Positions 44,383-63,555 of a stretch of 64,000 nt of DNA are shown here, one piece after another. The notes under the pieces are model-generated. The model saw nothing but the letters and a program-made list of their open reading frames with translations. It did not search any database and was not told the DNA's origin. Made by a program: the position numbers and the translations under genes. Source of the DNA: Methanospirillum lacunae (GTDB taxonomy: Archaea > Halobacteriota > Methanomicrobia > Methanomicrobiales > Methanospirillaceae). Location: NCBI RefSeq assembly GCF_003173355.1, contig NZ_QGMY01000003.1, positions 1 to 64,000 of the forward strand, in the 5' to 3' direction. Position 1 is the first letter of the stretch, and every line of letters begins with the position of its first letter.

Positions 44383-47300
44383 TTAAAGAACGGAGATATA
44401 TCCATCTTTTACTTTTTCTGAAGTACCTTCATTGCTAAACACCTTCAGAGTTACCGTGTAATTGCCAGGTGTAGAGTATACATGCAATGGATTCTGGTCA
44501 TAGGATGCGGTGTTGTCTCCAAAGTTCCAGAACCACTCAGTTGGGAATCCCTGTGATTTATCCTCGAACTGGACACTAAGTGGAGATTTTCCCGAAACCG
44601 GGTGAGCCATGAAATCAGCTACTGGTTGCTGCATCACTGTGATCGTCTCGTATGCATAATCCTTTGCTATGAATGGCTTGTCAACCTGGTGAGTTACCTG
44701 GTACACTCCTGGGGCAGTATAGGTATGGGATATGTTCTTAGAGAGTGAACCTGCACTGCTGTCACCAAAGACCCAGCCCCATGAGACATCTTCTGTGTTC
44801 AGTGAACAGTCTGTGAATTCAACAGTTAATCCCGGAGGAACCGTTCCTCCCAGTGGTTTTGCCATCATACAGGCAATCGGATCTGTGGTAACACAGATGT
44901 AATCCTTCTTCTCGACAGTGACACCATTAGGTGCTGCTGCATTGAAAGCAGTAAGTTTTACTGTGTAGTTACCTGTTTTTGCATACAGATGAACCGGTTC
45001 ACGAACATTTGTTACCTCACCATCACCAAAGTCCCATAGCCAGTCAGTCGGATTATTGATGGTGAGATCCTTAAAGGTTACAGGGTACTTTGGTGGAACC
45101 CTAACACGATCTGCTTCGAAATCAGGAACTGGCGGGAGAACGAAGACAGGTTCAATTGTATGATCTGAACTGATGTTTACAAAGGTGTACGGATTGATTG
45201 GTCCCACTGAACTGTTGTCTACAATCAGATCATAAAGGGCATTACCAGTATCAGGAGTAATCGTGAAGGTCTGGTTAGACCCGCAGTTCACCTGAACGAT
45301 CCCATTTGTTCCTGCAGGGGAGATATTCCCACCATTGGACTGATTTACTAGAATGTTGTAGGTTTTAATCTGGAACACTGCCTGAATTGTATGATCAGCA
45401 TTTACATTCGGGAATGTGTAGACAAATGGACTAACTTGAGGTCCACTGCTTACCCCGTCCACAATGACATCGCCTATAGTATAACAGGGGTTTGCAGCTA
45501 TGGTGAAGGTGATCGAATCACCAATGGTTACATTCTGTGGGGTAGACGGAGAAATTGTTCCGCCTACTCCTGCCGATGGTGTTATTGTGTATGCATACTT
45601 ACTGAAACTTGCGTTAATCGAGTGATTTTTAGTCACATTCGGGAAACAATATGTCATAGGACTTGTATTGTTACCCTGACTAATGCCATCAACCTCCACA
45701 TTGGAGATGAAGTAATTACTGAATGCGGTGATGTTGAAGCACTGTGTGTTCCCGAAGGTAACATTAACTGTGCCATTGGGCTGGATTTGACCGCCCTGAC
45801 CAGCAACCGCCGTGATGGTCAGGACGTCAGGCTGAAAATGTGCAACAATCTCGTGGTTCTCAGTTACATTCAGAGTGTAAGAACTGACCGGGCCCTTGGA
45901 GACACCATTGTCGGTTATATCTGCGAGTTGATATCCTGAGAATGCAGTTGAGTTGAAAGTAAGAGTCTGCCCATACGTAGCAGTGGTGTTGCCAGATGGA
46001 ACTATCATCCCAGCATTTTCAGGGATGACAGATGATGTCACATTGAACCACTGCTTTTCAAAGACAGCATGCCAGGTAAGATTTGTATGGAGATTGCACA
46101 CCTGGAAGTTGGTCTTGAAACCTTCAGACTCCATGTATGAGTCGCCAGATTCAAACTCGGGCCTGAGATAAGAAAGATAGTATCCAGGATCAGGAATTCC
46201 GGTTGTATTTTTGGTACACCCGTCATAGTCCACCTGATAGGGATCAGATGGATCAATCTTTCCTCCGCTCGTGTAGTTTGCAAATACCGTAACTTTGGTT
46301 GGGCGGAAGGTGCAGTATAACGTGTGGTTATACGTCATCTTTGAGCCCTGAATCACATAGGATGGTGCATACGGTACCGGTTCACCATCAAGATATAACT
46401 GTTTGACCTGGTTGTCGGCATCTGGTGTGAAGTTATATGCCACACTGTCGTCACCATAGTCGTAGAAGGTTATACCGGCATTGTTTACTGAACCACCTTT
46501 TCCTGCTGTTGCATTAACAGCTACCTGTTTCTTAAGAGAAGAAAGGTAAAGGGTCGCATTGCCCAGTGTCTTTTCATGTGGATATGTAACATTTTCGAGA
46601 TTATAGGTTATATTGAATACAGGTTTTCCTTCGCTCGTCCGATCCACAGTCAGGTTATGAGCAAGATATGCCGGATGCTCTCCACTCAGGGAAAACTCCT
46701 TGGTTTCTCCTGCAATAACAGGGATGAGACCTGATGGTTGAATGGAGGAGTGTGCATCCGATTCTGCCTGAATGAAGTATGTGGCACGATCAAGGCTGAT
46801 GATCTGTCCCCACTTTGAAGGGCGACCAACAAACAGAGTGGTGTCAACAGTTACTGTTTTTGGCAGGTTCATTGGCATCCGGTCAAATGTTACATTGACG
46901 ATCTTCTGGGCAGGAAGACTGATCCAACACGGAGTCCGATTCTCCTGCAATTCGCCATCGTATGTTACATTGGCTCCTTTTGGTATGCCAAGCTCTGGAT
47001 GATCATCATCATCCACACTGGTCTCGAAGTAGACCTGCACATAATTAGTGAACGGCGTCAGTTCTATCTCAACTGTACTTGGGGTGTTGGCAGTCACATT
47101 GAAGAATTTGTAGCCCAAGTGGTACCGGTCCTTGAAGAAGACTGAGAAGTATTCTCCTGAGTAAAGTTGTTGGGTAGTTGTCGTGTTACCAATTATCCCG
47201 GCAGTATACTTCAGAGAATCAGGCGTGATATCCTCTGTTGAGACAACGTTCTGTATCTTTGCTGCAAATTCTTCATGAGAACCATTGAAAGAATTCAGAG

Positions 47301-47991
47301 CACTGTCCATTTTAGATACGAGTGCACTCTGCTGGTCTGCATTCATCCTGCTAATCTGGTAAATGTAGACATCAGCACTTGTCGGATCACTCTTAAAGGT
47401 AACAGGTGATGTCTCCGGAATTGGATCAAGATTGATACGAAGTTCAGTCACGTTCCCTGCAGTAACCTCTGTAGTTCCATTTTTAGGATAATACCCGGAT
47501 CGGGTGATGTTATAAATATAGGTTCCTGGGGGAAGAGACTCTACAGATGCAGGAGTTTTACTGTAGATCAAACTGGTGACATTTGGTATCTCACGGTGAA
47601 GAGTCAGATCCGAATCTGACGGATTGGTGTCGAGATGGATGGCACCATATACCGGATTGTTTGGTGTGAGTGTTACCGTGCTGAAGTTGAGATACGTTCC
47701 CGGGGTGACGGTGAACGATTCATTCCACCAGGTAATAAATCCGTACTTCTTTAAAAATAACCGATAGGTCCCAGGTTCCACAAAGAACTCTCGCGGAGTG
47801 AGACCCTCTGTATCCGACACTGTCAGGTTGTCAGGCGAGACCGACACATTAGTGAGGTAGATTTCAGCTCCAGCAGGAACAGAATTAACAAAGACTACCC
47901 CTTTTTGTTGTGGCTCCGCCATACTTCCGGTTATCAGGAATGCCAGGATTAGCAGCCCCGCGATGACCGGATATGCAGTTTTGTATGCCAT
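44383..47991 (-). CDS. Giant secreted PEGA/PKD-domain surface protein
   Basis: This is a secreted cell-surface protein of about 1,202 residues. ATG 47991 begins the signal peptide MAYKTAYPVIAGLLILAFLITG; an upstream ATG at 48021 would only add 10 polar residues. The N-terminal third has PEGA-type beta modules (VFVNSVPAGAEIYLTN, GAIHLDTNPSDSDLTLH, VTFKSDPTSADVYIY). The middle has at least four repeats of about 75 residues built on VTFG...F-ITA...I-DV-VDG-S-GP...Y-F-NV-NHSI-A-F, like bacterial InlB-type B repeats. The end has three PKD domains (DWLWDFGDGEV, WGWVFGDSSAG, WFWNFGDNTAS). There are many N-glycosylation-type NxT/S sites. No C-terminal membrane helix or sorting tail is seen, so its means of attachment is unclear. 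A clear TATA box lies at 48101-48111. Confidence 0.85.
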   Translation of the reverse strand: MAYKTAYPVIAGLLILAFLITGSMAEPQQKGVVFVNSVPAGAEIYLTNVSVSPDNLTVSDTEGLTPREFFVEPGTYRLFLKKYGFITWWNESFTVTPGTYLNFSTVTLTPNNPVYGAIHLDTNPSDSDLTLHREIPNVTSLIYSKTPASVESLPPGTYIYNITRSGYYPKNGTTEVTAGNVTELRINLDPIPETSPVTFKSDPTSADVYIYQISRMNADQQSALVSKMDSALNSFNGSHEEFAAKIQNVVSTEDITPDSLKYTAGIIGNTTTTQQLYSGEYFSVFFKDRYHLGYKFFNVTANTPSTVEIELTPFTNYVQVYFETSVDDDDHPELGIPKGANVTYDGELQENRTPCWISLPAQKIVNVTFDRMPMNLPKTVTVDTTLFVGRPSKWGQIISLDRATYFIQAESDAHSSIQPSGLIPVIAGETKEFSLSGEHPAYLAHNLTVDRTSEGKPVFNITYNLENVTYPHEKTLGNATLYLSSLKKQVAVNATAGKGGSVNNAGITFYDYGDDSVAYNFTPDADNQVKQLYLDGEPVPYAPSYVIQGSKMTYNHTLYCTFRPTKVTVFANYTSGGKIDPSDPYQVDYDGCTKNTTGIPDPGYYLSYLRPEFESGDSYMESEGFKTNFQVCNLHTNLTWHAVFEKQWFNVTSSVIPENAGMIVPSGNTTATYGQTLTFNSTAFSGYQLADITDNGVSKGPVSSYTLNVTENHEIVAHFQPDVLTITAVAGQGGQIQPNGTVNVTFGNTQCFNITAFSNYFISNVEVDGISQGNNTSPMTYCFPNVTKNHSINASFSKYAYTITPSAGVGGTISPSTPQNVTIGDSITFTIAANPCYTIGDVIVDGVSSGPQVSPFVYTFPNVNADHTIQAVFQIKTYNILVNQSNGGNISPAGTNGIVQVNCGSNQTFTITPDTGNALYDLIVDNSSVGPINPYTFVNISSDHTIEPVFVLPPVPDFEADRVRVPPKYPVTFKDLTINNPTDWLWDFGDGEVTNVREPVHLYAKTGNYTVKLTAFNAAAPNGVTVEKKDYICVTTDPIACMMAKPLGGTVPPGLTVEFTDCSLNTEDVSWGWVFGDSSAGSLSKNISHTYTAPGVYQVTHQVDKPFIAKDYAYETITVMQQPVADFMAHPVSGKSPLSVQFEDKSQGFPTEWFWNFGDNTASYDQNPLHVYSTPGNYTVTLKVFSNEGTSEKVKDGYISVL

Positions 47992-48100
47992 TACTTCACA
48001 CTTCCCCTGTAAATCATTCATGAATGAAGGAAATCCCCGTGACGCATACCATAATGGGATGCAACTCGCAAGAGGAGTTAATCAGGGTTATATTTCTCAT

Positions 48101-48111
48101 CATATATATAG
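48101..48111 (-). promoter_or_regulatory. TATA box of the PEGA/PKD gene
   Basis: On the minus strand this reads CTATATATATG, about 110 bases before the ATG at 47991, giving a leader of around 80 bases. No gene is seen in the 281-base gap 47992-48272. Confidence 0.6.
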
Positions 48112-48272
48112 GTGTTGAAATACGCCAAAAAATAGAGGAATTTCAAATATTAAAGGTGTATCAGTACCCGTCTGCGAAATGAATACTTAATTCAAGCGAG
48201 CACAAAAAAAAGGATATCAGGAGTTGTAATCCAGGTTACATCTATAGTAGTTTGGATAAGATCTCTCCGATC

Positions 48273-51200
48273 TCACACTACGACCACATATGCAACACGG
48301 GACTTCTCATTTACTCCCATGTCATTCTTCACAGACAGAGTTACTGTATACTCACCAGGATTTACATAGGTGTGAGACGGAGCAATTGGAGTTGTATTGA
48401 ACGAATTTGTACGGTCACCAAAGTCCCAGTACCACTCAGTTACGTTTGATTGATTTGGAGTGTAATCTTCAAATTGGACAGTGAACGGATGAGTTCCACT
48501 GTACTTCTTCCCTGCAGCCCCGAAATTCACATCCTTTGGTCTTGACTTGTTTTCAATCAGGATCGTCTTTACTGCCGATCCAGATTGACCATCCCAGTTG
48601 GTCCCAGTCATATTGACAGTGTATGATCCCTCTGTAGAGTATGCGTGAACAATTGACGAGGAGTCAGTAGTTGTTGAGTTGCCATCACCAAAATTCCAGA
48701 TCCAATGGATAGGTTGACCTTTGGATGTGTCGATAAAGGTGATTGGTTGATTAACAATTCCCCACTCTCCTGACGGATCAGTCACGAAATCGGCGTACAC
48801 CGGGCCTTTTACACGGACAACATTTGAAGCAGTACCATTCCCGTACGGATTAGTTACAGTCAGGTTTACTGTGTATGTTCCCGCATTCTGGTAATAATTT
48901 ACCGCAGGTGTACCTATTGAGGTATTTCCATCTCCAAACTGCCAATACCACCCATTGATGGATTCACCCTTTGATGTGTCAACAAACGTCACTCTCTCAA
49001 ACCGGTTGGCAATATCAGGAGTAACGGTGAAACTTGCTTCTGGAGCCTTTTGTACACTGATATTAATTCTAGATCTTGAAACATTCCAAGCACCATAATA
49101 TGGATTACTCACATTAAGTGTAACATTGTGCCAACCTTCGGATGTAAACTGATGATATGGACTCTTATTAGTATCATTTGGCTGAATATCATCAAAGTTC
49201 CAGTCCCAGTTAGTAATATCGGCCTGTGGAGCGGAGAGATCAGTAAACTTAACCACCATTGATCCATTCACCGGAACTACAGATGTACCATTAGGGGTAA
49301 AGTTAGCATACACCGGACTTCCAACTTCAATGGTTTTATTTGCAACTTTTGTTAAACCGGAAGTATCAGTCACTGAAAGTGTCACATTATAGTTTCCTTC
49401 CTGGTTGAACGTGTGAATCACCGATGAACCAGATCCAAGGCTTGTTTGATCACCAAAATTCCAACTACGGCTGGAGACTAAAGATTGTGGAGTTGAATTA
49501 TCTGTGAAATTAACTGTAAAGGGGTAATATCCCTTAGTCTGGTTTGCAGCAATGTTAGCCTGAAGGCAATTAGTTAAATTGATACTCAGATGCTTGACAC
49601 TCCAATTTAATTGCGGGTTTGTTGCTTGAAGATCTACCTGATAGGTTCCGGCTTGTGGATACTCAAAAACCGGATTACTCTGATGATAGACATTTTTATA
49701 TGAACCATTTAAATAATAAAAAGTCCAGTACCAGTCATTTGGATCATCAGTAGAGTTATCCATAAATTGGACACTCAGAGGAAACGTCCCGCATTTTGGA
49801 GAATAACTGATATCTGCTACCAGGTTCTCATATACAGTCACCTGTTTCGTTGTGGTATTCCCTTTTGTTGGATCGCTACCATAACAACGTGGATCATATA
49901 CTGTGAGACTTACATTGTACGTCCCATTGCGGGAATAACTATAACTGGCATTTCTAGTAGGGGCCATATGGTCTGGTGAAAAACGCCATTCCCAACGGGT
50001 ATATTGATCTACACCTGAAGAAGTATCAGTGAAATTAAAAACTGCGCTTGAATCGCGATCGATAGTTGGTGGAACAGAAGGATCCCATGTAAAGTTTGCA
50101 TAGAGCCCAGTTACATTTACCCACTGACTCGACTGATTCCAGATTCCAAATGTATTATTCCATCCAATCTGGGTAACATTGTAACGACCTGGCAAATAAT
50201 ACGTATGATTGACCCAGTTCTGCGATAAATTGATGTCTTCCGTACCATCATCATAAATCCAAGTTATATTATCAAGATTACTTCCAGATGAATTATCCCT
50301 AAAAGTGACATTCACAGGGAATGCCGCACATGAGTATTGATATGGGGTAAAATTGGAAGTGATATTATCATATACCAACAATGGAAGGCTTGTCTGATTC
50401 CAGCCATAACTTGTGTTCGTTTTCAAAGTGACGGTATATACCCCGGGTTTCTCAAAAATATGGGTGAAATTCTCTGATGTGTTAATCTCATAACCACTTG
50501 AATTGGAGATATTCCATTCAGGAATAAGTTGAATGGCAGGCGTTGCATCAAATGTCCATGACTTATAATTTAGATCTGCCTTTAATGGTGCCGGGCCTTT
50601 GTCAATTAATACATGTGTATAATTATCGGTGATATTGAAATCAGAAACAGGAGGAGGATACATGACAAAAGAATATGTACTGTAATTCATCGGGTAAATG
50701 ATGGAGTCCGTTGAATTAGTTGCAGTGACATTAACATCATATGTCCATGGCGTGGATGGAGACGTATATGGAAAAGTATGGTTGAATGCATTTAGCCCAT
50801 TTGCAGGATTGTCAGTTGGTTGCTGATATGTAGTACCATCACTAAATTTCCAGTTCAGAATATCAGGAGTTGAACTATTTGAAGAAATATTGAATTTAAA
50901 CCGGGCCTGATATTGATACGTTGGAAATGTCTGATTAATTGAACCATTAATCGGAAGTTTCACAAGTACCGTTGTATCATTAGTCAAGGGAGTACATTTT
51001 AAGGGGTTTGGATCTGAACCATTCCAGGCAGACCAAGTCATAATATATTTCCCAGGTCCTGGAATGGAAAGATCAGTATAATTATCAGGGAGTGTATTTT
51101 GATCAGAATCTAAAACAGTTGTAGTCCCAAAGCGCTTTATAGAACTGGAGAAATTATCAGCAATCTGGTCTTGTGCTATTCCTTCTTTATCAGCAACATA

Positions 51201-51398
51201 AAACCTCTTTGTCACTGACGAATAATTATCGACAAAGAAAGTGAGGTTATCAGATGCTAAATCGTATAAATATTGAGGTTCAGAGCAGGGATAACTTTCA
51301 ATCGTTACATCACCCGCAGAAACCACATTCACAAGCCCAAATAAGGCAATAATCAACATTGATGTAATAATAAACAAGTTGAATTCAATTTTTCCCAT
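48273..51398 (-). CDS. Giant secreted multi-PKD surface protein
   Basis: This is a secreted protein of about 1,041 residues. ATG 51398 has GGGGAG 6 bases upstream and starts the signal peptide MGKIEFNLFIITSMLIIALFGLVNVVSA. The mature protein is almost entirely PKD-like modules of 80-90 residues, about ten in all; the last five carry clear signatures (SWNFGDQTS, DWNFDDIQP, WYWQFGDGNTS, WIWNFGDGNST, WYWDFGDRTNS). There are many NxS/T sites. Like its neighbour it ends in a PKD strand (VAYVVVV) with no membrane anchor. The gene is on the same strand as the PEGA/PKD gene but has its own promoter. The two are probably adhesins or S-layer-associated fibres; no ligand is indicated. Confidence 0.86.
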   Translation of the reverse strand: MGKIEFNLFIITSMLIIALFGLVNVVSAGDVTIESYPCSEPQYLYDLASDNLTFFVDNYSSVTKRFYVADKEGIAQDQIADNFSSSIKRFGTTTVLDSDQNTLPDNYTDLSIPGPGKYIMTWSAWNGSDPNPLKCTPLTNDTTVLVKLPINGSINQTFPTYQYQARFKFNISSNSSTPDILNWKFSDGTTYQQPTDNPANGLNAFNHTFPYTSPSTPWTYDVNVTATNSTDSIIYPMNYSTYSFVMYPPPVSDFNITDNYTHVLIDKGPAPLKADLNYKSWTFDATPAIQLIPEWNISNSSGYEINTSENFTHIFEKPGVYTVTLKTNTSYGWNQTSLPLLVYDNITSNFTPYQYSCAAFPVNVTFRDNSSGSNLDNITWIYDDGTEDINLSQNWVNHTYYLPGRYNVTQIGWNNTFGIWNQSSQWVNVTGLYANFTWDPSVPPTIDRDSSAVFNFTDTSSGVDQYTRWEWRFSPDHMAPTRNASYSYSRNGTYNVSLTVYDPRCYGSDPTKGNTTTKQVTVYENLVADISYSPKCGTFPLSVQFMDNSTDDPNDWYWTFYYLNGSYKNVYHQSNPVFEYPQAGTYQVDLQATNPQLNWSVKHLSINLTNCLQANIAANQTKGYYPFTVNFTDNSTPQSLVSSRSWNFGDQTSLGSGSSVIHTFNQEGNYNVTLSVTDTSGLTKVANKTIEVGSPVYANFTPNGTSVVPVNGSMVVKFTDLSAPQADITNWDWNFDDIQPNDTNKSPYHQFTSEGWHNVTLNVSNPYYGAWNVSRSRINISVQKAPEASFTVTPDIANRFERVTFVDTSKGESINGWYWQFGDGNTSIGTPAVNYYQNAGTYTVNLTVTNPYGNGTASNVVRVKGPVYADFVTDPSGEWGIVNQPITFIDTSKGQPIHWIWNFGDGNSTTTDSSSIVHAYSTEGSYTVNMTGTNWDGQSGSAVKTILIENKSRPKDVNFGAAGKKYSGTHPFTVQFEDYTPNQSNVTEWYWDFGDRTNSFNTTPIAPSHTYVNPGEYTVTLSVKNDMGVNEKSRVAYVVVV

Positions 51399-51505
51399 TT
51401 TTACTCCCCACATCAGTTCTACCCTGATTGTACCAATCTTTCTTCTTCAAATCCCACACCTGACACTTCAGGATAAAGAAGTTTTACCGGTGTAATCAGA
51501 ACGCG

Positions 51506-55279: not shown

Positions 55280-55726
55280 TTACAGTCGCTGCCGCATACG
55301 AAGTGATTTATCAGCAATCTGGTAAATCTGTCCGTCATAATATTCAGCGTACACCCGAACCTGATCTTCACCATCTGTTCCTTTGAGCACTACCTCACTC
55401 TGTGCCTTAGGAGGAAGTTCAAACCGTTCAACAGAACCATCACTCCGCTTTATCATAATCCAGGAACTCCTGACCATCTTCTGCCCTTTACCTCCTGAGA
55501 AAAAGACCTGAATTGTCTTGTCTGCCTGGTCCTTGTCATTAATTTGTGCTGAAACAGCGTTATCCTGAGGAGGTGCCGGATACGTTTCCAGACTGTTTGA
55601 GATTTGTGTAGGACTTGCAGATTCCTTTTGGGCTCCCGTATTCGGAGATACCACAACCTGATGTTGAGCACATCCTGCAACAAGAAGGATGAAAACAAGG
55701 CAAAGAAGGGGAATGATTAACCGCAT
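55280..55726 (-). CDS. Predicted lipoprotein
   Basis: I do not recognise a family. The 148-residue protein has a lipoprotein signal (IIPLLCLVFILLVAGC, with the lipobox-type LVAGC at residues 15-19), then a short linker and a beta-rich outer domain (about 55-148) with the pattern KTIQVFFSGGKGQKMVRS, SDGSVERFELPPKA and DGEDQVRVYAEYYDGQIYQ. It is anchored outside the membrane. It follows the RecA-like gene pair by 44 bases on the same strand and may belong to that transcript. Confidence 0.75.
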   Translation of the reverse strand: MRLIIPLLCLVFILLVAGCAQHQVVVSPNTGAQKESASPTQISNSLETYPAPPQDNAVSAQINDKDQADKTIQVFFSGGKGQKMVRSSWIMIKRSDGSVERFELPPKAQSEVVLKGTDGEDQVRVYAEYYDGQIYQIADKSLRMRQRL

Positions 55727-55770
55727 AAAGAATAATAATGAGAATCAGATTATAAAAATCTACTCAGTTT

Positions 55771-56469
55771 TCAGAAGACGTTTGCCTCTGTGTAAACAAT
55801 CATTGATTCTTTAAGAATCTCATACGGCTTAACCTCACGGGAATGGCCAGACATCCGCATTTTGACCACTTCTATAGCAAGATGAATATCAGAAACCGAG
55901 TCACCTCTCGCATATCTCAGGAGAATAACGGTATCACTGAGATACTCAATCAGATTATATCTGCTTGAAAACTCATTTTCTTTATCTGCTTCACTCGTGA
56001 GAAGAGAAGTACAATTCAGGTCGCGTAGACGATCAAGAAAACGCATCATTTCCCGTCTTCTTGTAGCATCATCATCAAACAGGTCTTCAAACAGAGATAC
56101 TGGATCTATGGTAACCCGGTGAGCTCCTGTGCGTTTGATCAGTTCAGGTAACTCGTTCTTGACACTGTTTATTGCAAGATTAAAATCAGATGGATCAAGA
56201 TTTACAATCGTGAGAGATTTTCCAAGATACGGTGTAATATCCCATCCTTTATCCCGCATGTAATATTCAATCCTGCCTGTCCGTTCTTCAAGGGTAATAT
56301 GGATTACATTCTCACCATTAAGAAGACCGGACCAAAGAAAATACAGAGCAAAGTTTGTTTTACCACACCCATACTGCCCAATTACGGATGCTACGGTACC
56401 GGGAATCAGCCCTCCGGAAAGCATCTCATCAAGACCTTTAATACCGAAGGTAATTCGATCACCACTCAT
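55771..56469 (-). CDS. RecA/KaiC-superfamily ATPase (ArlH-like), first of a pair
   Basis: This 232-residue protein is one RecA-type ATPase domain. It has a GLDEMLSGGLIPG start typical of KaiC/RAD55 and ArlH proteins, a complete Walker A GQYGCGKTNFAL (residues 31-42), the acidic HITLEERTG, and a Walker B-like region HRVTIDPVSLFEDLFDDD. A basic phrase MRMSGHSREVKPYEI lies near the end. It overlaps the upstream RecA-like gene by an ATGA, so both are translated together, probably as a heteromeric complex. The pair is divergent from an ArlI/ArlJ-type operon. In archaella, ArlH sits beneath ArlI at the motor, so a similar role is plausible; a circadian-type KaiC function is not indicated. Confidence 0.8.
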   Translation of the reverse strand: MSGDRITFGIKGLDEMLSGGLIPGTVASVIGQYGCGKTNFALYFLWSGLLNGENVIHITLEERTGRIEYYMRDKGWDITPYLGKSLTIVNLDPSDFNLAINSVKNELPELIKRTGAHRVTIDPVSLFEDLFDDDATRRREMMRFLDRLRDLNCTSLLTSEADKENEFSSRYNLIEYLSDTVILLRYARGDSVSDIHLAIEVVKMRMSGHSREVKPYEILKESMIVYTEANVF

Positions 56470-57299
56470 ATTATCACCCTGATATTGCTGACTTCAAATC
56501 CACGTCCAGGAGTAATCCGTACAGCAAACTTAACCATCTCCCGATCTTCAAGATGGATCATAACTCCCCGAAATTTTTCTATGTACAAAACCCTCTGTCG
56601 TTTTGCCGAGGAGGATTCTTCCCATCTGAAATGAATGACTGCATCAACTGCATCAGCCACCTCTGTCTCCTGCCACTGATTAAGGATACCTTTAGTCAGA
56701 ATAAGGTAGAAAGTGGTGTTCCATTTTTTTGCCACACGCTGAAGACCGCGTAGAAATGCCGTGAGATCAGGCCATGTCCCGGCAGCAATATGTTGTGTCG
56801 CAAGCTCAGTAAGTGAGTCGATGGTTACCATACTCTCTTTTGGAATATCAGAGAGCATATCAGCGAGGGTTGAAAGCACACTATCATGGACTTTTCGTCT
56901 CTTTTCCATCCGCTCAATGATATCTTCATAATCTGAGTACCATCCAATTGGGACAAGACTCGAATCAAAATAGATGTCTGAGAGATCATCAAACTGAACA
57001 TTCGCGATGTGAGTCAGGAGATCAGGAGAGAAAGACAGCTCAATTTCTCTGAGAATATCTTCCCGCATCTTGGTAACAGTGATATACCTGATATCAGCAG
57101 GTATTATTACCTTTTTGTCTGGAGAACCTCGCGCCATTATCAGGGAGAGATAAATGAGAGAAGTATATGCAAATTCGATCTTTCCTGATCCAATGTCTCC
57201 TTTCAGGAGTATAACAGAACCAGGAGGAACTCCACCTCCAAAAACCGGATCGAGTGTTGACAGACCAGTGGGCATATAACGATTTATTTCTGTATACAT
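56466..57299 (-). CDS. RecA/KaiC-superfamily protein with altered Walker A (ArlH-like)
   Basis: This 277-residue protein has a single RecA fold. ATG 57299 is chosen because GGAG lies 5 bases upstream; a TTG at 57302 is the alternative. After PTGLSTLDPVFGGGVPPGS comes the P-loop GDIGSGKIEFAY (about residues 34-45), in which the Ser/Thr that normally follows Lys and binds Mg2+ is Ile. A Walker B-like ESMVTIDSLTEL is kept. It may bind nucleotide without turning it over. It overlaps the next RecA-like gene by 4 bases. The two are related but not close copies. A TATA-like element on the minus strand at about 57335-57346 would serve both. Confidence 0.78.
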   Translation of the reverse strand: MYTEINRYMPTGLSTLDPVFGGGVPPGSVILLKGDIGSGKIEFAYTSLIYLSLIMARGSPDKKVIIPADIRYITVTKMREDILREIELSFSPDLLTHIANVQFDDLSDIYFDSSLVPIGWYSDYEDIIERMEKRRKVHDSVLSTLADMLSDIPKESMVTIDSLTELATQHIAAGTWPDLTAFLRGLQRVAKKWNTTFYLILTKGILNQWQETEVADAVDAVIHFRWEESSSAKRQRVLYIEKFRGVMIHLEDREMVKFAVRITPGRGFEVSNIRVII

Positions 57300-57428
57300 C
57301 AACTCTCCAAAAACCGATTATGAGTAGTCTTCCATTATTATACTTATACTCTTTCTTCCCGGTATAGGCAGTCATTCCTCAGCGTTTTTATCTGATGATA
57401 ACATATCATTCACTCATCAATATTAGAT

Positions 57429-59390
57429 GTGAAAGGGGTAGTCACATCAGTAGGCAATATCATGGCGGGGGCTGGAAAAGAACAGGGTACAGATAGAATA
57501 GATAAAACTATAGGTGGACCGAAAAAGAGAAAAACCATTACCATAAAGGTTCCCCGTATTTCTCTTAGCAGAAAAACTCAGGAGAATAAAACCGAATCAA
57601 ACCTGAAAAATGGACCCGCAACATCAAAAATCTCTTCCACCACTCCGAAAATTAAATCCCTGAAATCCTTAGACAATCAGGAACCACATTCTGGGAAAAT
57701 AAACCGCATCAAGATCAATCCTTTACACCATAAATCTGAAAACCCAATTGTAGTTACTCAGAAAGAACTTAAAAAGTCTCTAGGCACCGATAAAGAAAGC
57801 AGAGATTTACACTACTCAAATAAACTACTCAAAAAATTCTCATTAGCTAGAAAATCTGGAGTTGAGGAGTACAGTTTTGAAAAACATGGTTCGCTTGTAG
57901 ATTATGATGTTCCATCCGGTTATGAATTAATCAGAGAGTATTGGGCAGATCCTGGTCGTGCTCTGGTATGCATTGCTCTCAACACAAATTCACGGATGAA
58001 GGAGTATCTCCTATATGAACCGGCCCTCACTCCGTTCGAGTATGAACTGCTTGAACGGCTTCATGAAGATCTTCGCGATGTCCTGATTCTTACCGATGAA
58101 GAGACTGGGATGGATCGGAAGTTTCTCCTCCAATCCAAGGTCATGGAACTCCTCAAATATTATGGAGTCTCCATAGATCCAAAGTCGCTATTCAAATTAG
58201 AATATTTCCTGGTCAGGAACTACATTGGTTGGGGCCGAGTCAATGCTCTCATGATAGATCCCTGGATCGAGGATATTTCATGTGATGGGGATAACATTCC
58301 AATCTTTCTCTTCCACCGCAAAGAGCAGAATATCAAGACCAATATCCAGTTTGAGACTGAGGCATTAATCTCTCTTGCAATAACGCTCGCCCAGCGATCA
58401 GGAAAACACATATCATCGGCAACACCCCTCATAGACGCAACACTCCCTGAAGGATCTCGTCTGCAACTTACATTCGGAACTGAGGTGACTTCACGTGGGA
58501 CCTCATTTACTATAAGGAAATTCCGTGAACAGCCATTCACACCAATCGACCTGATGGAGCTCAAGACATTTAACGCAGATATGCTTGCCTACTTCTGGAT
58601 GGCTATCGAGAATAACATGAGTCTTGTCTTTATTGGAGGGACAGCTTCTGGGAAGACAACATCACTCAACGCGGTCTCACTCTTTATTCCACCCCTTGCA
58701 AAAGTCATCTCTATTGAAGATACCCGCGAACTTACCCTCTTTCATGAGAACTGGATTGCAAGTATCACCCGTGATTCAGTTGCTGAGGGAGGAACATCAG
58801 TTGATATGTTTATGTTGCTCAAAGCTGCAATGCGGCAGCGACCTGAGTATATCCTAGTTGGTGAGGTTCGTGGACATGAAGCACAGACGCTCTTTCAGGC
58901 AATGAACACCGGACATACTACATTTTCAACCATGCATGCAGGAAGTGTAGATGCTGCAATTCACCGACTTGAGAACGAACCGCTAAATGTTCCAAGAAAC
59001 ATGCTTCAGGCACTCAATATTCTGAGCATCCAGAAACAAATCCAGATTGGACCTGACCGGGTAAGAAGAAGTGAAGAGATCGTTGAGATAGCAGGAATTG
59101 ATCCGGCTACCGGCAATATCATGGTCAATACAGTATTTGAGTACGATCCGCTTATAGATTCATTCCACTATACAGGACGATCACAGGTTCTCGGTGATAT
59201 TTCTACACTTCACGGGTGGAGCAGGGAAGCCCTTACTGAAGAGATGGAGCGTCGGAAATCAGTCCTAAATGCAATTAAGGATCAGGACCTCCGCGATTAC
59301 ATCAGGTTTACCAAGATCATACAGGCATACTACATCGATTCACAACGGGTGCTGGATAATATCAAAGACCTGGACAAGATCGCCTCATGA
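57429..59390 (+). CDS. Type II/IV secretion ATPase (ArlI/GspE-like)
   Basis: This cytosolic hexameric ATPase would power filament assembly or secretion. The 653-residue chain has a basic, low-complexity N terminus (about 1-140, rich in Lys, Ser and Thr), an N-terminal ATPase-associated domain (about 150-310), and the ATPase core with Walker A GGTASGKTTS (about 403-412), Asp box ISIEDTRELTLFHENW, Walker B ILVGEVRGHEAQTLFQA and the His box NTGHTTFSTMHAGS. The frame starts at GTG 57429; ATG 57462 is an alternative and neither has a strong ribosome site. Its stop overlaps the start of the platform gene (ATGA). It is longer than ArlI mainly because of the basic leader. No pilin or prepilin peptidase gene is adjacent. 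Confidence 0.88.
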   Translation: MKGVVTSVGNIMAGAGKEQGTDRIDKTIGGPKKRKTITIKVPRISLSRKTQENKTESNLKNGPATSKISSTTPKIKSLKSLDNQEPHSGKINRIKINPLHHKSENPIVVTQKELKKSLGTDKESRDLHYSNKLLKKFSLARKSGVEEYSFEKHGSLVDYDVPSGYELIREYWADPGRALVCIALNTNSRMKEYLLYEPALTPFEYELLERLHEDLRDVLILTDEETGMDRKFLLQSKVMELLKYYGVSIDPKSLFKLEYFLVRNYIGWGRVNALMIDPWIEDISCDGDNIPIFLFHRKEQNIKTNIQFETEALISLAITLAQRSGKHISSATPLIDATLPEGSRLQLTFGTEVTSRGTSFTIRKFREQPFTPIDLMELKTFNADMLAYFWMAIENNMSLVFIGGTASGKTTSLNAVSLFIPPLAKVISIEDTRELTLFHENWIASITRDSVAEGGTSVDMFMLLKAAMRQRPEYILVGEVRGHEAQTLFQAMNTGHTTFSTMHAGSVDAAIHRLENEPLNVPRNMLQALNILSIQKQIQIGPDRVRRSEEIVEIAGIDPATGNIMVNTVFEYDPLIDSFHYTGRSQVLGDISTLHGWSREALTEEMERRKSVLNAIKDQDLRDYIRFTKIIQAYYIDSQRVLDNIKDLDKIAS

Positions 59391-61312
59391 GAACAGATCT
59401 TATAGTCAGACGATGGATCGCACGAAATCCTGATAGCTTCATTCCTGTCAGAAAGGATCTGAATTCTATAAGAGCCGGAGTCACTGTTGAACAATATATA
59501 CGTCAGGCCCTGTTTATTGGGCTGATGACAGGTCTCATTGCAGGCCTTATAGGTTTTTTCCTGTCATCATTTCTTTTTATCTCTAATTTCGGGCTGAAAC
59601 CAGAATTATACAATGTTCTGAATCTGGACATTAATACTAGTAATCCTAACGTTACAATCATACTGGCTGTCCAGCTCATTATTGCAGTGGCAGTCTTTTT
59701 TATTGGTGGCGTGATCGGGTACAAAGCCGTTCTTGCTTATCCATCACTTGAGAAGATGACAAGGACGACCAAGATCAATATCGGCCTTCATAATGCTGTT
59801 GCTTATATGTATGCAATGCGTCGAGGAGGGGCCGAACTTCTTGAAATCCTTAAATCACTATCAGAAATGTCTGCAGTTTACGGAGAGGTGTCATACGAGT
59901 TCAGGCAGGTTGTTCGTGATGCAGATTTCTTCGGATATGATGTCGTAAGTGCATTACGACATTTAAGTGAGACAACACCATCCCAAAAGATGCGTGATTT
60001 CCTTCAGGATATGCTTTCGACAGTGGAGAGTGGGGGTGATCTCTCTCAGTTTCTTCAGGACCGGGTTCACATACTTCAGGAGGAAGCCAAATTTGAGCAA
60101 AAAGAGTTCCTTCAATTCCTGGGCCTGGTTGGAGAGATATATGTTACCGTGTTTATTGCAGGTCCACTCTTTCTCATAACGATAATGGTCGTGATGGGTA
60201 TGATGGGCTCTTCAGCTGTCTTTGAACTCTCACTAATTGGTTATATCGTTCTTCCGATAGGATCTCTGATCTTTATCCTGATGATTGATACAATCTCGAT
60301 CAAGGATGAAAATGCCATTAAATATGTCAAGGCAAAATGGCTGAACCAGTATACTGACGTGAGGGTCAGACAGATGACAGGCGAAGAGCGACTCTTTGCG
60401 ACAATCGCCAGGTTTGACCAGTTTAGATACATCAAAAAATGGCTTGCTCATCCTCTTAATGGATTTATTGAAAAACCTGAGTATTCATTTATTTTTACTA
60501 TCCCATTGGCACTATTATTCCTGATATGGGTATTCTTACACGTTCCGGCCGGGACACTTGATGATATGATCATGGCTGTGGATGATATGTGCATGATAGC
60601 CCTGCTTATTATATTGATTCCGTATGCAGTCTTCTATACTATATGGAATAATAAAATCCGGGGAATAGAGTCACTTATCCCAGATTTTCTCGACAGGATG
60701 GCTGGAATCAATGAAGTGGGTCTTACCCTTACCCAGTCAATCACCATCATGGCCAGGGCAAATCTGGGAATCCTTGCATATGAGATTCAGCATATCCAGC
60801 GTGATATACTCTGGGGAGCAAACTTCAGTGATGCATTAATTAGGTTTGAACTCAGGGTGAGAACAGCACTCATTGCAAGGACTGTCACGCTTATCACTAA
60901 AGCATCTACGATGAGTAGTTCTATCGCTGACCTGCTCAGGATTGCTGCCTCTGATGCACGGATGAGCGAGATCTTAAAGCGTGATCGGCTATCTGAGATG
61001 TTTATCTATACCGCTATTGTATACCTCTCATTTTTCGTTTTTATTTTTGTGATTGGAGTCATCACCACCCAATTTCTAACAGTTTTAGCAAATCAGAGTA
61101 CAGAAGGGCTTTCAATGGCAGGACCACTGGCCAATGTAGGAACCCTCTCACTTACTACTATTGACAGGCTTTTGTATCACACATGTCTGGTGCAGGGATT
61201 TTTTTCAGGTCTTATTGCAGGAATGATGGGAGAATCATCGATCAAGGCAGGAGTTAAGCACAGTTGTATTCTGATAATAGCGGCACTTCTCGCATTCAAC
61301 TTTGCCTTTTAA
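59387..61312 (+). CDS. Type IV filament membrane platform protein (ArlJ/TadC-like)
   Basis: This is an integral membrane protein of 641 residues with about nine helices (approximately 35-65, 90-125, 240-270, 275-302, 360-382, 395-420, 540-570, 590-610 and 620-640). Two cytosolic T2SSF-type helical regions lie between them: one around 130-235 (MYAMRRGGAELLEILKSLSE; VESGGDLSQFLQDRV) and one around 430-535 (FLDRMAGINEVGLTLTQSITIM; ASTMSSSIADLLRIAA). This two-module layout is that of archaeal ArlJ/TadC-like platforms, somewhat longer than usual. It overlaps the ATPase gene by 4 bases, the normal ArlI-ArlJ coupling. It should be the membrane anchor on which the ATPase works. Confidence 0.86.
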   Translation: MRTDLIVRRWIARNPDSFIPVRKDLNSIRAGVTVEQYIRQALFIGLMTGLIAGLIGFFLSSFLFISNFGLKPELYNVLNLDINTSNPNVTIILAVQLIIAVAVFFIGGVIGYKAVLAYPSLEKMTRTTKINIGLHNAVAYMYAMRRGGAELLEILKSLSEMSAVYGEVSYEFRQVVRDADFFGYDVVSALRHLSETTPSQKMRDFLQDMLSTVESGGDLSQFLQDRVHILQEEAKFEQKEFLQFLGLVGEIYVTVFIAGPLFLITIMVVMGMMGSSAVFELSLIGYIVLPIGSLIFILMIDTISIKDENAIKYVKAKWLNQYTDVRVRQMTGEERLFATIARFDQFRYIKKWLAHPLNGFIEKPEYSFIFTIPLALLFLIWVFLHVPAGTLDDMIMAVDDMCMIALLIILIPYAVFYTIWNNKIRGIESLIPDFLDRMAGINEVGLTLTQSITIMARANLGILAYEIQHIQRDILWGANFSDALIRFELRVRTALIARTVTLITKASTMSSSIADLLRIAASDARMSEILKRDRLSEMFIYTAIVYLSFFVFIFVIGVITTQFLTVLANQSTEGLSMAGPLANVGTLSLTTIDRLLYHTCLVQGFFSGLIAGMMGESSIKAGVKHSCILIIAALLAFNFAF

Positions 61313-61339: not shown

Positions 61340-63508
61340 TCAAATAATGGTGGAACGCAATACCGTTTCACCAGGTTGCCCTGCTAACCGGATCTTTGAG
61401 CGGTACTGATTTTTCGCTTCCCATATAAGTTCCCTGAAATGTACTTTAGGTGTTTCAAGAAGTCGCATGAGGGGAAGAGTCGCACGGTTGTCATTGATCT
61501 CATAGAGCACTACAGCTATCCAAACCCGCCTTTGTATCGAACCAGTATGAAGCAGGGGTATCAGGTTGTCAACAATTTCCGGCCCCATAGTTGCTAATTT
61601 TACTGCCGCGTCTGCTGCCCTGGCAGGATCCTCAAGTTCTGATGCAAGGATCTGGACCTCCTTTCTTTTTGTATCAGAAAAATCAGGAGTTGATTCTATA
61701 ACACGAGGAACTGTAGTTTTTGTCTGTATTACAGGAATTTGAGAAGCCGAAGGATTAGGAAGAGGAACAGAAGGCTGATCTATTTGAGAAACCTGCTGAA
61801 TCAATCTTGTATTCTCAGCATCCAGACGAAGTATATTTTCTGAAAGGGTTGCGTTATCACGATCACGACTTGCCAGTTTCTCTTCAAGAGAGGTTATTTC
61901 CCGATATAAAGCATGAACTGAGTCGTCTTTTTCTGCTCTGATTGTCTCTTGAAGCTTTATATACTGATGCCTGACACGATCAATTTCTGCTCGTAAAGCC
62001 TCATTATTTATAAATAAATCCTGAATCTGTCGATCACGATTGGTGATATCAGATCGGAGAGCCTCTTCTTGTGATCGTGATGAAGACTGAAGATTTGCGA
62101 GTTCCTGATGAATTCCACTGATTTCATCACGATAATAATCCTCCCGGGCCTGCCTTTCAGATAGAAGATGATCCCGTTCATTACCCAGTTTTTTTATCTC
62201 ATCATGAATATGGTTGATCTCATGTTGGTACCTTTGTTTAGATTCAGATAGTTTTTCCCGCTCAAGTAACATCTCATTGCTATGCTTTTCTCTCTCCTGC
62301 CTGAGATTAATTTCCAGTTCTTCTACCCTGATTTTTTCTTTTTCATACTGAGAAATCTTTGAATCAAGTTCAACCTGAATTAATTGATTCGATTCTGTAG
62401 TTTCCCGGAGAGTTCTCTCTAATTCATCCCTCTGGTGACTTAATTCAGTAATTTTTTCATGCAGATCCTGGAGAGTTTGAGCATGGGAAGCAACAGTTGA
62501 CCGTAGTTCTTCATGTTGACTGTTGATCTGATCCTGAAGGTTTTCCTTCGTACGCGAGAAATCAGATGATATGTGTGCAAGTTTCTCCTCATACTCCTGT
62601 CTTATCAATGAAAGATTATCAGATAGGATCCTGCTTTCTTCTTCATACCGCTGACGCTTCACACTTTCATCAGAAAGGAGATTCTGTAACCTGGAGATTT
62701 CACGCTCTGTATCGGCAGTTACTTTTTTCAGAAGGATTCCAAGATCTGAATAAGCTTTTTGACTTGTTTTTAATTGCTCCTCGAATTCTTTCTCCTGAAG
62801 ATCCCGTTCCTTCAGTTCACGTGCACGGATCTGTCTTTCAGTGTTGATTAATAGGTGGAGATGATCAATGGTTTCACGTGATTTCTCTTCGAGGGTTTTT
62901 TCCCGGTCAGCATACTCATGCAGGCGTTGGTCCATTATCTTGAGGGCTTCTCCGGCATTTCGAAGATCTTCCTCATTATGTTTTATTTGAGTAGTAAACC
63001 GGTGGTGATCCAGTTTTAATGTCTCAGAAAGTTCACGAGCCTGGGAAGAAAGGATTTCCTGTTCATGTCGAAAAGCTACTGCCTGATCTTCAAGATTTAT
63101 CAGCAGAGATGAGATCTTTTCTTCATAAATGGTAATCAGTTTGCTTTTATCGTCAGTGAGAACAGCAATTTCTTTTTCTTTCTCTTCGAGAGTACCTGTA
63201 AGTGACTCAATCTTTTCTTCAAACTGAGATACCCGGGTCTGGAAAATATTTCTGACCTCACTGATCTCATTAATCAGCGCGTCCCTTCTCTCCTCCAATT
63301 CATGAATTTCTGCGTCATATCTTCGGGCAGAACGTGATTTTTCATCTTGTTCGTGTTTGAGACTCTTTTGTAATTCCTCTATTTTCGTCTCAAATTGTTT
63401 GATGATAATATCTGATTCATGCTCGAGTTTGATGATTATCCGGGCCAGTTCTTCGTTTTTGCTCTGAAGCGTAATCAGTTCTTTTAATATAGATTGCGCA
63501 AGATCCAT
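61340..63508 (-). CDS. Long coiled-coil protein with C-terminal HEAT-like repeats
   Basis: This is a cytosolic protein of about 722 residues from ATG 63508, preceded by GGGGGG 5 bases upstream. Residues about 1-580 are almost unbroken Glu/Lys/Gln/Arg-rich heptad sequence with no membrane segment, predicting a rod tens of nanometres long. A Pro-rich hinge (about 580-620) leads to a C-terminal domain of about 100 residues with HEAT-like helices (ARAADAAVKLATMGPEIVDNLIPLLH, RRVWIAVVLYEINDNRATLPLMRLL). SMC-type ATPase heads are absent. It is convergent with the filament operon, its stop 27 bases from the platform stop. A structural or scaffold role is likely; a link to the filament machine is only positional. 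Confidence 0.78.
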   Translation of the reverse strand: MDLAQSILKELITLQSKNEELARIIIKLEHESDIIIKQFETKIEELQKSLKHEQDEKSRSARRYDAEIHELEERRDALINEISEVRNIFQTRVSQFEEKIESLTGTLEEKEKEIAVLTDDKSKLITIYEEKISSLLINLEDQAVAFRHEQEILSSQARELSETLKLDHHRFTTQIKHNEEDLRNAGEALKIMDQRLHEYADREKTLEEKSRETIDHLHLLINTERQIRARELKERDLQEKEFEEQLKTSQKAYSDLGILLKKVTADTEREISRLQNLLSDESVKRQRYEEESRILSDNLSLIRQEYEEKLAHISSDFSRTKENLQDQINSQHEELRSTVASHAQTLQDLHEKITELSHQRDELERTLRETTESNQLIQVELDSKISQYEKEKIRVEELEINLRQEREKHSNEMLLEREKLSESKQRYQHEINHIHDEIKKLGNERDHLLSERQAREDYYRDEISGIHQELANLQSSSRSQEEALRSDITNRDRQIQDLFINNEALRAEIDRVRHQYIKLQETIRAEKDDSVHALYREITSLEEKLASRDRDNATLSENILRLDAENTRLIQQVSQIDQPSVPLPNPSASQIPVIQTKTTVPRVIESTPDFSDTKRKEVQILASELEDPARAADAAVKLATMGPEIVDNLIPLLHTGSIQRRVWIAVVLYEINDNRATLPLMRLLETPKVHFRELIWEAKNQYRSKIRLAGQPGETVLRSTII

Positions 63509-63555
63509 CAAAGCCCCCCGGAGAGAGATAAGTCGTACTAAAACACTCGTGTATC

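Follow-up and report, generated by a model that had tools for sequence, protein, structure and literature searches.

How does a type IV filament engine come to be encoded without any pilin at its side, and what are two genes for RecA-fold proteins doing back to back with it? Outside the archaellum, little is known about what turns archaeal pili on and off, and KaiC-like proteins are so far suspected regulators. The locus discussed here lies in a 64,000-nucleotide stretch of DNA (the window, which always means this whole stretch) that belongs to contig C3 of the 3.74 Mb Methanospirillum lacunae genome. The original prediction had tied a type IV filament engine to the two RecA-fold genes. This core idea, with the pilins located elsewhere, is borne out by gene neighbourhoods, joint presence, pilin matches and mirror-tree correlations. 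We read the locus as a pilus engine with a dedicated KaiC-type control module acting on it, and we place the probability of this reading at roughly 0.55.

Locus layout and the PilB/TadC engine

Five genes make up the locus, as determined from the window sequence and its open reading frames, and all five lie at the positions first given for them. On the plus strand, a PilB/GspE-type assembly ATPase (T2SSE) with a PilB3_C domain (57429-59390; translation may in fact begin further in, at the ATG at 57462) overlaps through an ATGA at 59387-59390 with a TadC/PilC-type platform (T2SSF) that carries both halves in one protein (59387-61312). Divergent from these, on the minus strand, are KaiC2, a KaiC-like and apparently pseudo-ATPase partner (56466-57302, first ATG at 57299), and KaiC1, a single-domain KaiC-type ATPase of the TIGR03880 (AF_0351) family (55771-56469), and this pair also shares an ATGA overlap (56466-56469), read from the sequence. 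These four genes are called the quartet below. The divergent promoter region between KaiC2 and PilB (57300-57428, no strand) holds TTTTTAT followed by TGATGnCATAtnA at 57380-57410, a block conserved in six Methanospirillum loci that is a possible promoter and regulator site; no DNA secondary structure beyond chance was found in this region. The fifth gene, a lipoprotein gene downstream of KaiC1 (55280-55726, minus strand), had been counted as part of the machine, yet among the surveyed loci it occurs in three Methanospirillum genomes only (at the window, L042 and L045) and is absent from other Methanospirillum loci, which makes it a neighbour rather than a conserved component. Further along (61340-63511), a gene convergent with TadC encodes a coiled-coil protein of 723 aa whose C-terminal part has a weak HEAT-like match; it is common to Methanospirillum loci and did not turn up beside quartets from other genera. 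A tandem pair of large PKD-repeat surface proteins is also encoded in the window (44383-51413).

In Pfam, the ATPase matches T2SSE (PF00437) at 116 bits against a cut-off of 24.9 and PilB3_C (PF23989) at 42.1 bits against 27, with PilB3_N staying under its cut-off (13.9 of 27). Profile comparison gave as best match the entry 2oap, which we take to be the A. fulgidus GspE, at 631 bits against 351 for FlaI, and the ArlI model NF058587 reached 382 bits of a cut-off of 550. A tree of 43 ATPases, which does not settle how the quartet PilBs from different classes branch, placed the window ATPase outside the ArlI clade (SH-aLRT 100) and in another clade than the genome's second PilB, encoded on contig C11. 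The platform matches T2SSF (PF00482, 104 bits) over two stretches and the ArlJ model NF004704 at 79.8 bits against a cut-off of 550; at C11 TadC is split into two genes, each half of the window platform matches one of them, and the platform reads as a fused double TadC. By sequence, the ATPase groups with the A. fulgidus GspE and the euryarchaeal type IV pilus ATPases, and the locus, where platform and ATPase share an operon, is predicted from its genes to be the cytoplasmic engine of an ordinary euryarchaeal type IV pilus. The labels "ArlI-like" and "ArlH-like" first given to these proteins are sound at the level of the superfamily and fail at the level of the family.

The absence of pilins from the locus had been noted correctly: the class-III pilin profile (PF07790) has no match in the 64-kb window and 10 matches elsewhere in the genome, six over the cut-off and none on contig C3, and it picks up pilins at another locus. 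Together with one genome-wide match to prepilin peptidase (PF06847), both classes of component expected of a type IV pilus are found somewhere in the genome and none at the locus. Two further clear T2SSE loci exist in this genome, namely C6, an archaellum locus with che genes, ArlJ, ArlI and ArlH, and C11, a pilus locus with the split TadC and class-III pilins nearby. At C11 (L007:7185-7802) we also observed a KaiC-like protein of 205 aa, degenerate in its P-loop (GSATSGAD) and divergent from the second PilB. It has a counterpart of 68% identity in M. hungatei, presumably strain JF-1. A KaiC beside every PilB was considered and rejected, since C11-type loci of three other genera are devoid of this degenerate KaiC.

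Pilin-less PilB3 loci with pilins encoded in trans are described in the survey of Makarova, Koonin and Albers (2016; PMC4858521). The PilB3/PilC3-type loci of Haloferax and the A. fulgidus GspE locus share with ours a T2SSE and TadC operon, no local pilins and PilA-type pilins in trans; compared with these loci, however, the window locus adds the dedicated divergent KaiC1-KaiC2 pair and the fusion of the platform halves.

KaiC1 and KaiC2

KaiC1 and KaiC2 are proteins of 232 and 278 aa with one domain apiece, and neither holds a tandem CI-CII arrangement. KaiC1 matches KaiC in Pfam (PF06745, 169 bits) and TIGR03880 (KaiC_arch_3) at 327 bits, above the curated cut-off of 249.45, and profile comparison gave 232 bits for KaiC against 35 for ArlH. 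Its motifs are intact: the Walker A lysine K37 (within GQYGCGKT, located by motif alignment at 56356-56379, minus strand), the catalytic E62, the Walker B D122 and K203-M204-R205 are each invariant in 37/37 sequences, and the last of these aligns with the K-x-R of KaiC in structure comparison. The KaiC1 model (pLDDT 86.6) finds its best fold match in the KaiC CI domain (Z 30), and KaiC1 is apparently an active ATPase. Fold and motifs match CI/CII of the cyanobacterial KaiC, with which the locus also shares the co-encoding of two neighbouring KaiC domains, whereas the tandem CI-CII protein is here replaced by two genes, one of them with a lost P-loop. A further difference from CII is found at the phosphorylation sites, presumably Ser431-Thr432 of KaiC, where the aligned positions of KaiC1 carry an invariant Glu-Tyr.

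KaiC2 matches KaiC/PF06745 at 49.7 bits and TIGR03880 at 19.6 bits, below the same cut-off of 249.45; its similarity to KaiC in profile comparison is distant (63 bits). With the ArlH model NF052589, KaiC1 and KaiC2 scored 34.4 and 33.1 bits against a cut-off of 215, and in the tree, where the deep branches are long, KaiC2 forms its own deep clade and both proteins lie apart from the ArlH clade. The ArlH-type pair once proposed is not supported. Profiles and tree place KaiC1 inside a KaiC branch, TIGR03880, and KaiC2 in a separate family. A position in a KaiC branch, named at the outset as a finding that would count against the prediction, holds for KaiC1, but this branch is itself pilus-linked. 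KaiC1 also differs from ArlH, a protein without ATP hydrolysis (PMC8978795), in being a KaiC whose catalytic Glu is intact.

The KaiC2 model (pLDDT 88.3) has the KaiC/ArlH fold (Z about 22), and its P-loop is degenerate (GDIGSGKI in the window, 57177-57200, minus strand; GExGAGxxEF as the family pattern). The Walker lysine is absent in 39/43 orthologues, and the four that retain it are all from Methanospirillum and have the next Thr replaced by Ile/Val; the Walker A Lys and Thr together that mark an active RecA/KaiC ATPase are thus not found in KaiC2. The pattern GxGAGxxEF persists in other lineages, and in 40 homologues from there the Walker lysine is absent at the P-loop site, bar one row from Archaeoglobi (L132), where a gap displaces the alignment. 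Within Methanomicrobiales the Walker B Asp is kept, and so is a K-F-R strand end (K243 in 42/43, F244 in 43/43 and R245 in 35/43 orthologues; 56568-56576, minus strand) at the same strand-end position as K203-M204-R205 of KaiC1. KaiC2 apparently is a pseudo-ATPase that has lost normal ATP binding, and its KxR is perhaps a candidate finger acting in trans.

Conservation of the pair with the engine

Through matches to KaiC1 we collected 60 neighbourhoods; 59 loci, the window included, have a KaiC2 anchor. All four genes are present in 54/59; of the remaining five, three run into the end of their contig and two belong to Methanocorpusculum. As the original prediction required of related genomes, the pair stays beside the engine: the divergent order KaiC1-KaiC2 / PilB-TadC and its orientation are the same in 54/54 complete neighbourhoods of Methanomicrobiales, an arrangement far beyond chance. 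Across these 54, the -4 overlap is seen for KaiC2/KaiC1 in 35 and for PilB/TadC in 48, and the median gap between KaiC2 and PilB is 178 bp.

Because this set was picked through KaiC1, KaiC2 and TadC were also searched genome-wide. Among 106 genomes at least 95% complete, which are not independent of one another, 86 have KaiC1, KaiC2 and the window-type TadC (here called the module), 20 are without all three and none is discordant, with presence and absence both found within genera g4 and g17. One of the 86 genomes (G112) is omitted from the underlying table, its TadC missing only because the contig ends there. In seven Methanocorpusculum genomes TadC is full-length but diverged, and this count scores them as having it; at a strict score threshold the KaiC1/TadC table reads 80/6/0/20. 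Presence of the module is unrelated to presence of ArlH (73/13/19/1, p=0.46). Partial mirror-tree correlations controlled for LonB amount to 0.62 for KaiC1-TadC, 0.50 for KaiC2-TadC, 0.47 for KaiC2-PilB and 0.22 for KaiC1-PilB (p 0.02 or less), and V-ATPase subunit I, also syntenic, has no excess correlation beyond LonB. Matches to PilA-type pilins have a median of 9 with the module and 3 without it (5 and 3 within genus g17, p=0.03), a weak hint that pilin number tracks the module, with genome size and ancestry as confounders.

The frequent quartet neighbours with a Pfam match are housekeeping genes (TldD/PmbA, LonB, BofA family, PRPP synthase and A-type ATPase), and a gene of about 180 aa that follows TadC at 31 loci has no Pfam match. 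In most Methanomicrobiales outside Methanospirillum, the quartet is flanked by a conserved block (L046:8444-13233 and equivalents) made up of two TldD/PmbA genes, LonB and a BofA-family gene. Elsewhere, a stretch with a 563-aa ORF breaks the N-terminal part of the quartet PilB gene in one Methanospirillum MAG (L043:4039-5967). In Methanocorpusculum (L090, L091, L080, L081) the quartet proteins are strongly diverged and ArlH is absent, and in two genomes the pair is unlinked from PilB/TadC. No relatives in viral contigs were confirmed.

Beyond the order, the quartet is also found in Methanocella-like genomes and other lineages, and KaiC2 relatives are spread across the phylum. Ten Archaeoglobi loci have the KaiC1-KaiC2 pair without an adjacent PilB/TadC, and 19/20 other sampled loci, mostly from Halobacteria, have a KaiC2 homologue without KaiC1 or PilB beside it; the pair, or KaiC2, can therefore work without an adjacent engine. 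At one Archaeoglobi locus (L136:6910-9599) the pair adjoins a 186-aa protein and a third KaiC-like gene, and similar third KaiC genes occur at several further Archaeoglobi loci.

Proposed control of the engine and its alternatives

Since the pair is kept or lost together with the engine, it probably controls it. We propose that one overlapping message would yield matched amounts of KaiC2 and KaiC1 and that the two would assemble into a mixed oligomer, where KaiC1 would bind ATP and hydrolyse it slowly, and KaiC2, with no normal ATP binding, would give structure and perhaps its KxR finger to the KaiC1 sites. This oligomer would dock on PilB or the platform and, depending on its nucleotide state, would start or stop the assembly of pili, a role like that ascribed to ArlH with respect to ArlI, with pilins and prepilin peptidase supplied from other sites of the genome. 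ArlH is a KaiC-like, ATP-binding, non-hydrolysing autokinase whose unphosphorylated hexamer binds and stimulates ArlI (PMC8978795), and by analogy the pair may act directly on PilB. The ArlH-ArlI-ArlJ motor likewise encodes a RecA/KaiC-fold protein together with a T2SSE ATPase and a T2SSF platform; the window locus, however, has its ATPase in another clade, two RecA-fold proteins against one, and no archaellum genes. A bolder and quite tentative version would be a split KaiC: a mixed active/dead ring under PilB would serve archaeal pilus assembly as a clutch timed by nucleotide or phosphate. It would be ancestral to several lineages of Halobacteriota, and KaiC2 would act as a pseudo-ATPase adaptor throughout the phylum.

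A possible alternative, with odds of around one in four in our judgement, is that the KaiC pair forms a signalling switch on pilus gene expression through some transcription factor and leaves the engine untouched. The divergent promoter, with its conserved blocks, would allow both operons to be tuned, the Archaeoglobi pairs stand without an adjacent engine, and for the KaiC-like CirA of Haloferax volcanii, which alters both motility and the shape of cells, a role in modifying the transcription factor CsmR is proposed (PMC13286277). KaiC families also count as potential T4P regulators in the survey of Makarova et al. (2016; PMC4858521). That survey reports the KaiC families arCOG01172 and arCOG01173 next to VirB11/TadC operons of Methanomicrobia. 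Against such a switch, Pfam and curated profile searches recognised no DNA-binding domain in KaiC1 or KaiC2, no transcription factor gene was recognised among the frequent neighbours of the quartet, and co-evolution with PilB and TadC suits direct contact better than action at a promoter. As far as the sections of that survey on KaiC families extend, they are treated there as generic regulators, without the fixed divergent order, joint loss, co-evolution or degenerate P-loop of KaiC2, and relative to those sections three things are new: a KaiC pair in a fixed divergent arrangement, the loss of pair and engine together, and a KaiC2 of pseudo-ATPase character.

It is unlikely that the pair has a separate job, such as a general stress or metabolic signal, and is adjacent through old synteny only. 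The flanks do consist of syntenic housekeeping genes, and the pair in Archaeoglobi and KaiC2 in Halobacteria go without the engine; however, in Methanospirillum these syntenic flanks are gone and the quartet is intact, joint loss is perfect among the nearly complete genomes, and the syntenic V-ATPase subunit I has no excess correlation of its own. A second archaellum-like machine with an ArlH-type pair replacing one ArlH, as originally predicted, is very improbable, for although the KaiC2 fold ties FlaH/ArlH with KaiC (Z 22.8 vs 22.6) and FlaH models (38.6 bits) are among its weak sequence matches, the ATPase, the platform and both KaiC proteins fall outside the archaellum families, the module is distributed independently of ArlH, and a full archaellum locus with ArlH/I/J exists elsewhere in the genome.

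A KaiC pair with one apparently dead member, kept or lost with one pilus engine across an order, marks out two genes for deletion and a specific complex for purification. Control of the engine by the pair would carry over to ordinary pili the ArlH principle, in which a KaiC-fold protein controls the ATPase of a type IV filament. KaiC2 would provide a natural case of a KaiC pseudoenzyme.
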